Part shown: in pieces, positions 15,391-63,421 of the stretch
Numbering within the stretch: the first letter of the stretch is position 1
Layout: each line of letters opens with the position of its first letter
NCBI GenBank assembly: GCA_903882745.1
Contig: CAIRYG010000002.1
Span: forward strand, 62,001 to 126,000
Origin: an uncultured Gemmatimonadota bacterium
GTDB lineage: Bacteria > Gemmatimonadota > Gemmatimonadetes > Gemmatimonadales > Gemmatimonadaceae
Reading direction: 5' to 3'
Length of the DNA stretch: 64,000 nucleotides
Notes under the pieces: model-generated
What the model was told of the DNA's origin: nothing
What the model saw: only the letters and a program-made list of their open reading frames with translations
The model's database searches: none
Translations under genes and position numbers: made by a program

Positions 15391-16076
15391 CACGTCCGGT
15401 GTTCTTGCTCGAGTTCCATGACCTGCTCGTCGATACGCGAGCGGCCCGATTCGCCGCGCTCCGCGAGGCACTGCAGCACGAAGGCATCGCGATTGACGAT
15501 GATGTGTACGATGCCCGATTCGCCGGGCTGTCCATTGCAGATGCGGTGCGCGCTGCGGCGCAGGGCACCGCACTGGAACTTGACGAGACCGGACTCGACC
15601 TTGCCACGATGCGCGCCACCGCGGCCCAGATGGCAGCCGCGTCGCGCGGCATCACCTTGATGCCTGGCGCCGCCGAGTTTGTGCGGAATGCCGCATCGCG
15701 GGCCGTGGTGGGGCTTGTTGCGGCCACGTCGCGCACCGAAACGATGCACGTCGTGGAACTCGCAGGCCTCGCTGATCAGTTCAGCCATATCGGGTGCGAG
15801 GATGATGGAGGGGCACACACGACGCTCGCCGAGCGGTGGCAGGGCGTGCGGCGTCGGCTCGTGGCCCGGGTGTCGGCCAGTGAGGGCAATGCCGCGGTGA
15901 TGATTGCGCTGTGTGGAACGGGAGCTGGAATCGATGCCGCAAAGGGACCCGGGGTCCGGGTCTTTGCGACCGGAGCGGTTGCCGCCTCGATTGCGTTCCG
16001 TTCCGATGGATGGATCCCCACGCTCGAACGATTGACGGTATCTGAGTTGTTGGCCTTGGAGGCCCATTCCGAATGA
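15387..16076 (+). CDS. HAD-superfamily protein with non-canonical catalytic motif I
   Basis: A 229-residue protein with the layout of phosphoglycolate-phosphatase/CbbY-type HAD hydrolases. The usual DxDGTLVDT at the N-terminus reads LLEFHDLLVDTR. Aligned on the trailing VDT, the nucleophile Asp is replaced by Glu9, the acid/base Asp by His11, and the Gly-Thr by Asp-Leu. The motif II strand (LVAATSR) and the helical cap remain recognisable. The family dephosphorylates 2-phosphoglycolate and similar substrates, but with these changes the protein may be inactive or have another role. GTG 15387 overlaps glcF, and the stop overlaps the next ATG, so it is expressed with glycolate oxidase. Confidence 0.75.
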   Translation: MTRPVFLLEFHDLLVDTRAARFAALREALQHEGIAIDDDVYDARFAGLSIADAVRAAAQGTALELDETGLDLATMRATAAQMAAASRGITLMPGAAEFVRNAASRAVVGLVAATSRTETMHVVELAGLADQFSHIGCEDDGGAHTTLAERWQGVRRRLVARVSASEGNAAVMIALCGTGAGIDAAKGPGVRVFATGAVAASIAFRSDGWIPTLERLTVSELLALEAHSE

Positions 16077-58619: not shown

Positions 58620-58647
58620 TTGACATATCCGTTCATCCGGATATACT
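58620..58647 (+). promoter_or_regulatory. Promoter for metF-metH
   Basis: A consensus TTGACA (58620-58625), a 16-base spacer and TATACT (58642-58647, one mismatch from TATAAT). The expected start point is near 58654, about 12 bases before the SAM-II-like aptamer. Confidence 0.8.
58625..58644. promoter_or_regulatory. Operator-like inverted repeat inside the metF promoter
   Basis: ATATCCG (58625-58631) and CGGATAT (58638-58644) form a 7-bp inverted repeat with a 6-base centre, touching both the -35 and the -10. ATCCG also appears as a direct repeat at 58627 and 58635. A protein bound here would block the polymerase. The regulator is not identified and none is encoded nearby. Confidence 0.55.
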
Positions 58648-58667
58648 GATAGAAGACATCTGAAGAC

Positions 58668-58719
58668 CGTGGCGATTTCGAGGCAAATTGCGGCCACGTA
58701 AAACATCCGCTAAAGCGCC
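58668..58719 (+). promoter_or_regulatory. SAM-II-like riboswitch upstream of metF
   Basis: A 6-bp stem CGTGGC (58668-58673)/GCCACG (58693-58698) encloses a 19-nt loop starting GATTT and ending near ATTGC. An A-rich joint and GCTAAA (58709-58714) follow. GGC in the loop (58682-58684) can pair with GCC (58717-58719), as required for the H-type pseudoknot. Stem position, loop length, GATTT, TTGC and GCTAAA all agree with my memory of the SAM-II aptamer that controls methionine genes. The start codon is about 85 bases further on, more distant than usual, so the output mechanism is unclear. Confidence 0.75.
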
Positions 58720-58805
58720 GCCCCGGTGCGCCTCGTAGCCTGCCACCGTTGGCGATCTGTGGCCGGCCGTTCGGGGACTCGATCCCATCGCCGTGGCACG
58801 TGCTC

Positions 58806-59680
58806 GTGACAGCTCCCTACTCGGCACCACCGTTCAACATCTCCTTCGAATTCTTCCCGCCAAAGTCGGCGGAGATGGAGGAGAATCTGTGGCGTGCCAT
58901 CCAGCGCCTCGAGCCGCTCGCGCCGACCTTTGTGTCGGTGACCTACGGCGCCGGCGGAAGCACCCGTGAGCGCACGCACAACACGGTGCACCGGCTGCTG
59001 CAGGAGACCACACTGATCCCCGCCGCGCACCTGACCTGCGTCGCCGCCACCCGCGACGAAGTCAATGCCGTGGCTGACGACTACTGGAACTGCGGCGTCC
59101 GACACATTGTGGCCCTCCGCGGCGACCCGCCCGCCGACGGCGATCAGTACACCCCGCATCCCGGGGGCTATGCCTATGCCTCCGACTTGGTCGCGGGACT
59201 CAAGGCCCGCCACGATTTCGAAATCAGCGTCGCGACGAACCCCGAAGGGCACCCGCAGTCCGCGTCGCTCGACGACGAAATCGACAACCTGAAACGCAAA
59301 ATCGACGGCGGCGCGACTCGCGCGATCACGCAGTTCTTCTTTGACAATCGCGCCTACCTGCGTTTCCTCGATCGCGCGCGGAAGGCGGGGGTGAACATCC
59401 CGATCGTCCCCGGGATCATGCCGGTCTCAAACTTTGTGCGCACCGCACTCATGGCCGAAAAGGCCGGCGCCAGCGTGCCGCGCAGTGTCGCCAAACGCTT
59501 TGAAGGTCTCGAAAATGACATCGAGACACGGCGCCTGGTCGCAGTCGCCGTGGCCGCCGACCAGTGCCAGCAACTCGCCGAGGCCGGCGTGAGCGATTTC
59601 CACTTCTACACGCTCAACCGCGCTGACCTCACCTACGCACTCTGCCACTACCTGGGGCTGCGCCCCCGCCCCACGGCCTC

Positions 59681-59684
<4 letters not shown>
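58806..59684 (+). CDS. metF: Methylenetetrahydrofolate reductase
   Basis: A 292-residue TIM-barrel flavoenzyme that reduces 5,10-methylene-THF to 5-methyl-THF, the methyl donor for MetH. Seen: [11 protein letters not shown] with the catalytic Glu, [25 protein letters not shown] and ITQFFFDN. I take GTG 58806 as the start, eight residues before the conserved strand; GTG 58800 and TTG 58749 remain possible, and none has a clear ribosome-binding site. It lies behind a promoter, an operator-like repeat and a SAM-II-like element, and its TGA overlaps the metH ATG (ATGA). Confidence 0.93.

Positions 59685-63421
<3,737 letters not shown>

Follow-up and report, generated by a model that had tools for sequence, protein, structure and literature searches.

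A SAM-II-class riboswitch candidate before metF-metH in Gemmatimonadota, behind a promoter with a putative SahR-type operator

What controls the metF-metH operon of this uncultured Gemmatimonadota bacterium, and is the structured element in its leader a SAM-II riboswitch? A preliminary description, made from the letters alone, had proposed such a riboswitch outside its usual hosts and named metF-metH as its target. The target was borne out by profile matches to both genes in the window, by which we mean the whole 64,000-nucleotide stretch analysed:

58806-59684, plus strand: metF, methylenetetrahydrofolate reductase (TIGR00676, 344 bits; PF02219)
59681-63421, plus strand: metH, B12-dependent methionine synthase (TIGR02082, 1681 bits)

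The genes overlap by 4 nt, and the start of metF was placed at GTG 58806, with GTG 58800 or TTG 58749 also possible. Among named genomes, MAGs of Gemmatimonadetes/Gemmatimonadaceae encode the nearest MetF proteins, at no more than 77% identity, which places the window genome in Gemmatimonadota. Upstream of metF, the 6-bp stem, the 19-nt loop opening with GATTT, the TTGC and GCTAAA motifs and the GGC/GCC pairing were each found where they had first been described, within the following set of aptamer elements:

58660-58727, plus strand: predicted SAM-II aptamer, as the extent of the lineage covariance-model match
58659-58733, plus strand: match to the Rfam model RF00521, 32.2 bits
58668-58673, plus strand: 5' strand of P1, CGTGGC, forming a standard pair in 111 of 111 aligned copies
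58674-58692, plus strand: P1 loop of 19 nt, opening with GATTT, read from the sequence
58674-58678, plus strand: GATTT, conserved core, from the RF00521 match and the aligned copies, and within the pattern that picked those copies
58682-58684, plus strand: 5' strand of the P2a pseudoknot, GGC, from covariation in 111 copies
58688-58691, plus strand: TTGC, conserved pseudoknot core with GC(T)AA as expected partner, from the RF00521 match and the aligned copies
58693-58698, plus strand: 3' strand of P1, GCCACG, from pair counts in the aligned copies
58709-58714, plus strand: GCTAAA, conserved core, from the RF00521 match and the aligned copies
58717-58719, plus strand: 3' strand of the P2a pseudoknot, GCC, from covariation in 111 copies

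Among Rfam families, RF00521 (SAM_alpha) matched the region best and over the full model length (32.2 bits, E 1.9e-5), about 4 bits short of its gathering score of 36, which is a curated threshold and not a property of the molecule; because of this shortfall, no family was listed when the window was scanned with Rfam at its default gathering threshold. The RF00521 search proposed in the preliminary description thus singled out the expected family, but with a score under its cut-off. A lineage model, R1, built from 59 Gemmatimonadota copies with the window and its sister species left out, gave the window copy 69.1 bits (E 3.5e-15 in a search of the 64-kb window) and found only two sites in the whole genome, the metF leader (E 1.7e-13) and one before panB. 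A partial R1 match at 15704-15729 (E 0.042) was taken as chance. Orthologous metF leaders exceed the RF00521 cut-off, for example L116 with 43.2 bits and L137 with 44.5 bits. The long-loop SAM-II family RF01726, which has the core arrangement in common with RF00521, reached only 15.1 bits (E 5) on the region against a cut-off of 44. The Rfam scan of the region reported no match to SAM-V, a class that resembles the window element in its pseudoknot core and short P2a (PMC6061858) but differs in having other stem lengths and in being translational.

The pairing was examined in 111 aligned copies, and the result was repeated without the window. Because the Rfam model was used to retrieve these copies, and a pattern with ATTT, TTGC and GCTAA to excise them, the columns of these motifs owe part of their invariance to the selection; the pattern does not affect the P2a evidence. 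P1 is paired in all 111 copies and is nearly invariant, its variation amounting to a double change from U-A to A-U (L131) and one U-G/C-G change, so that most of the case for covariation comes from the three pairs of P2a. Of these, the outer one is G-C in 62 copies and C-G in 16, the covariation score of P2a was reached by none of 500 shuffles, and pairing fell from 96% to at most 42% when the partner strand was slid to other registers. The GGC/GCC pseudoknot that had been put forward as possible is one that covaries, and of the covariation looked for in related leaders that of the pseudoknot was found, whereas P1 contributed a single double change. P2a is mostly 3 bp long here (75/111), compared with 5 bp in 60% of SAM-II (PMC6061858). 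That the resemblance arose by chance, or marks conserved DNA with no function as RNA, is hardly credible: it could draw on a P1 that varies so little as to yield little covariation by itself, but it is opposed by the genome-wide E value from a model excluding the window, by a P2a covariation that no shuffle or slid register matched, and by recurrence of the element before methionine-pathway genes across the phylum. The SAM-II class is upheld by covariance models, orthologous leaders and pseudoknot covariation alike, and 58660-58727 (plus strand) is a supported SAM-II aptamer before metF-metH, which by homology would bind SAM.

MetF of the window type occurs in 30 of 138 Gemmatimonadaceae genomes, and 25 of these 30 loci, in the window's genus and in neighbouring genera, have a SAM-II leader before metF; the orthologous leaders keep the order promoter, aptamer, terminator. 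All five metF loci without SAM-II (L140-L144) carry an ArsR-methyltransferase gene upstream in the same locus. In the sister species (L145; MetF 98% identical), promoter, aptamer and the following ~40 nt are almost unchanged. The sister's aptamer and switching strands match those of the window letter for letter despite divergence upstream of the promoter, which weighs against the aptamer being the remnant of a decaying riboswitch whose control has passed to a SahR-like repressor. Such decay, which we consider improbable, would account for an RF00521 score under the cut-off, a linker one base shorter than in the majority of aligned copies, the lost T-run and the intact operator (see below for both), but not for the 69.1 bits with the lineage model or for the retention of all conserved core bases (GATTT, TTGC and GCTAAA).

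MetF of the window type is patchily distributed in Gemmatimonadaceae, and its closest relatives outside the phylum are alphaproteobacterial, at 62-69% identity; this distribution and identity suggest that the metF operon may have been transferred. Joint transfer of metF and SAM-II from the alphaproteobacterial lineages covered is unsupported, as none of their 67 metF loci has a SAM-II.

Upstream of the aptamer, a promoter scan found -35 and -10 elements, and a palindrome between them points to a second level of control:

58620-58625, plus strand: -35 element, TTGACA (promoter scan)
58642-58647, plus strand: -10 element, TATACT, with a 16-bp spacer (promoter scan)
58625-58644, no strand assigned: candidate operator, the palindrome ATATCCG-N6-CGGATAT (ATATCCG-TTCATC-CGGATAT), which fills the promoter spacer

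The -35 and -10 elements together match the consensus at 11 of 12 positions (0.1 expected in shuffles). The transcript would start near 58653, and the aptamer elements begin 20 nt downstream of this near-consensus promoter (58620-58647). The operator core, ATCCG-N6-CGGAT, at 58627-58642 in the window, is present in 21 of the 25 SAM-II-bearing metF leaders (in L123 with a single change), at a fixed 28-33 nt upstream of GATTT, and is absent from the other four. Four genomic sites carry the full palindrome with at most two mismatches, and one of the others, TTTCATCCGTATATCCGGATGAAA, lies at the start region of an arsR-methyltransferase gene (L221:564-1526, minus strand; 320 aa, PF01022 and PF08241), which is followed by ahcY (AdoHcyase). 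A 24-bp palindrome at L221:1500-1523 overlaps this start region. Strictly scored, the palindrome recurs at the arsR-methyltransferase/ahcY promoter in 26 of 30 relatives, with two more showing one or two changes and the remaining two loci cut by contig ends.

SahR, an ArsR-family regulator that responds to SAH, controls ahcY, metF and metH, and the window palindrome fits the SahR/SamR consensus ATC-N10-GAT (PMC4239095). The 1023-bp length of Ensifer sahR (PMC8877191) is that expected for an ArsR-methyltransferase fusion, and the fusion gene stands directly upstream of metF in nearly all alphaproteobacterial loci fetched (L048-L114) as well as in a few Gemmatimonadaceae genera (L140-L144). On these grounds the L221 ArsR-methyltransferase is a probable autoregulated SahR-like repressor of Gemmatimonadota, and the promoter palindrome at 58625-58644 a probable binding site of a SahR-like repressor. 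Alternatively, the palindrome might not be a SahR-type operator but a trace of shared promoter ancestry or the mark of a different regulator, which would leave the riboswitch as sole control. We judge this unlikely: occurrence of the bare palindrome at eight places in the genome and its absence from four SAM-II metF leaders would be in keeping with it, but not the fixed spacing before GATTT in 21 of 25 metF leaders, the palindrome at the arsR-methyltransferase/ahcY promoter of at least 26 of 30 relatives, or the position of the arsR-methyltransferase gene, which immediately precedes metF in alphaproteobacterial loci and in some of Gemmatimonadaceae. The locus resembles the proteobacterial SahR regulon (PMC4239095) in the ArsR domain, the ahcY or metF-metH neighbourhood, the ATC-N10-GAT motif and the targets ahcY, metF and metH; it differs in that the candidate site before metF is combined with a SAM-II riboswitch. 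Leyn et al. (2014) predicted both SAM_alpha and SahR in the hom-metXC leader of Oceanicaulis alexandrii (PMC4239095), a single alphaproteobacterial case with another target, whereas the arrangement in the window is conserved across two Gemmatimonadota genera.

We consider it likely that the metF-metH leader works as a SAM-II-class OFF switch responsive to SAM, located behind a promoter that is probably also under a SahR-like repressor. Judging from the sequence, metF-metH would probably form a two-input gate, with an SAH-sensing repressor acting at initiation and a SAM-sensing RNA afterwards. The ArsR-methyltransferase protein would bind the palindrome between -35 and -10 and block initiation unless SAH is high. 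At high SAM, the nascent leader would fold P1 and the P2 pseudoknot, an aptamer by homology, and bound SAM would keep the 5' strand of P1 and the loop engaged, which would let the downstream hairpin form and turn metF-metH off; without SAM, the P1 5' strand and loop would pair with the 3' arm of the hairpin and expression would continue. We infer the OFF direction from the class, since SAM-II is described as turning genes off and as having terminators (PMC1273637, PMC2258182). On balance, such a gate would make methyl-THF and methionine at low SAM and high SAH. In the window species, where the T-run has been lost, the final step may involve a non-canonical terminator, Rho or translation.

An intrinsic terminator follows the aptamer in 84 of 122 Gemmatimonadota leaders by a strict test, and in most Gemmatimonadota copies a G+C-rich hairpin with a T-run starts no more than ~10 nt after it. 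No intrinsic terminator with a T-run was found after the aptamer in the window or in the sister species (L145), and loss of the T-run within the genus is limited to these two. The earlier suggestion that the expression platform may be new therefore applies to this pair, but not to relatives, which have ordinary intrinsic terminators. The corresponding region of the window retains the following:

58724-58748, plus strand: remnant at the terminator position, CGGTG (58724-58728) / CACCG (58744-58748), with no T-run; relatives have an intrinsic terminator at this place
58730-58735, plus strand: GCCTCG, alternative partner of the loop segment CGAGGC at 58679-58684 (duplex prediction)
58741-58746, plus strand: TGCCAC, alternative partner of GTGGCG at 58669-58674 (duplex prediction)

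The terminator loop and 3' arm of metF leaders (GCCUCG-UCGCC-C-CGG) are a potential pairing partner of the P1 5' strand and loop (CCGUGGCGAUUUCGAGGC). The window keeps this alternative pairing with a different sequence, GUGGCG with UGCCAC, and the forced antiterminator state is predicted at -36.6 compared to -27.4 kcal/mol for the P1 state; the duplex is set apart from shuffled partners by a z of only -1.6. The fold of the whole window leader, no more stable than shuffled sequence (z 0.38), was not drawn on as evidence. Across the 30 metF leaders, the antiterminator state lies at most 2 kcal/mol above the P1 state, or is better, in 15, and is preferred in nine, the window among them. It is disfavoured by 10-23 kcal/mol in L128, L138, L129 and others, and several leaders of the second genus (L128, L138) do not support an antiterminator. 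Where the loop has changed to GGAGGC, a matching GCCTCC is found downstream in L121, L125, L136 and L037 and is missing in L120, L123 and L134. These predictions make an antiterminator likely in the window's genus and leave it unproven more widely.

A real SAM-II aptamer could also act, in the window species, through translation or Rho-dependent termination, altering ribosome access to the metF start, and we give this nearly an even chance. It would explain the hairpin without a T-run in the window and its sister, and precedents exist. In leaders L010, L011, L014, L017 and L019, the 3' strand of P2 abuts the start codon (GCTAAAACGCCAGGATG), with GCC adjoining AGG and the ATG of a gene for a homocysteine methyltransferase/MTHFR fusion, which is by its sequence a minimal translational SAM-II layout; and the metA SAM-II of S. 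meliloti controls translation from a start codon that lies 74 nt further on (PMC9373788). In the window, however, there is no clear Shine-Dalgarno sequence within or beside the pseudoknot, and the orthologous metF leaders of the genus have terminators. The distance to the start codon, 86 nt from the end of the aptamer to GTG 58806, had been regarded as a departure from the usual arrangement, which it is not, given the S. meliloti distance and a spacing of ~40-100 nt in relatives. Directly 5' of GTG 58800/58806, at 58741-58798, lies a long imperfect hairpin-capable stretch (TGCCACCGTTGGCGAT ... ATCGCCGTGGCA), and in the sister species one change weakens the corresponding stretch. A match to EAV_LTH at 58741-58798 was rejected, being under its cut-off and to a viral family, though it marks the hairpin-capable stretch.

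The SAM-II OFF switch that we favour for the leader resembles the known metA element (RF00521) in its 6-bp P1, GATTT loop, TTGC before the P1 3' strand, GCTAAA after it and P2 pseudoknot, and also in the near-consensus promoter shortly before P1, the downstream terminators of relatives and the methionine-pathway target; it differs in its Gemmatimonadota host, in having metF-metH as target and in scoring 4 bits below the Rfam cut-off. SAM-II has been reported in alpha-, beta- and gamma-Proteobacteria and Bacteroidetes (PMC1273637, PMC2258182, PMC2704228), and a search of non-subscription literature found none published in Gemmatimonadota. A host outside Alphaproteobacteria, as first suggested, is supported in that Gemmatimonadota are added, although sporadic cases elsewhere (Bacteroidetes, beta- and gamma-Proteobacteria) were already known (PMC1273637, PMC2258182). 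RF00521 matched in 283 of 395 sampled Gemmatimonadota genomes, above the cut-off in 221 of the 395, so that what was mainly an alphaproteobacterial class with scattered outliers is also common in a separate phylum.

Targets of the fetched loci were assigned by tblastn and NCBIfam. The largest group is metH-type methionine synthase, and further targets are bifunctional homocysteine methyltransferase/MTHFR, panB, metY, metX and threonine synthase (thrC), with aspartokinase and homoserine dehydrogenase in single or few cases; the published proteobacterial targets are metY, metA, metXW and hom-metXC (PMC4239095). The second SAM-II of the window genome (L209:3900-7819; G000:C3, about 154413-158320) precedes panB, a moeB/moeZ-type adenylyltransferase gene and thrC, and has a hairpin and T-run immediately after the aptamer; a SAM riboswitch upstream of the pantothenate gene panB looks unreported. 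Occurrence of SAM-II in Gemmatimonadota and its new targets are apparently likewise unreported. The targets added, metF-metH, metH, the homocysteine methyltransferase/MTHFR fusion, panB-moeZ-thrC and thrC, would put entire one-carbon and aspartate-family operons under SAM. A wider reading, in which SAM-II is the main methionine and one-carbon regulator of Gemmatimonadota, the metF-metH gate reads the SAM/SAH ratio and the window platform works with no canonical terminator, is tentative, and we hold it to be somewhat less probable than its negation.

The metF-metH leader offers a natural test case of an SAH-sensing protein repressor and a SAM-sensing RNA on one promoter-leader, and its relatives a set with nearly the same aptamer and differing terminator, antiterminator and start-codon arrangements; the composite leader and the platform lacking a T-run are the parts deserving experiments. 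Two RF00521 matches lie before genes other than those of methionine metabolism, namely MoxR-like ATPase-type and TonB-receptor-like frames (L199, L205), and that in L199 may be a false positive. In L150, L151, L202, L169, L178 and L187, SAM-II stands before threonine synthase, aspartokinase and homoserine dehydrogenase genes, a reach into the aspartate family.
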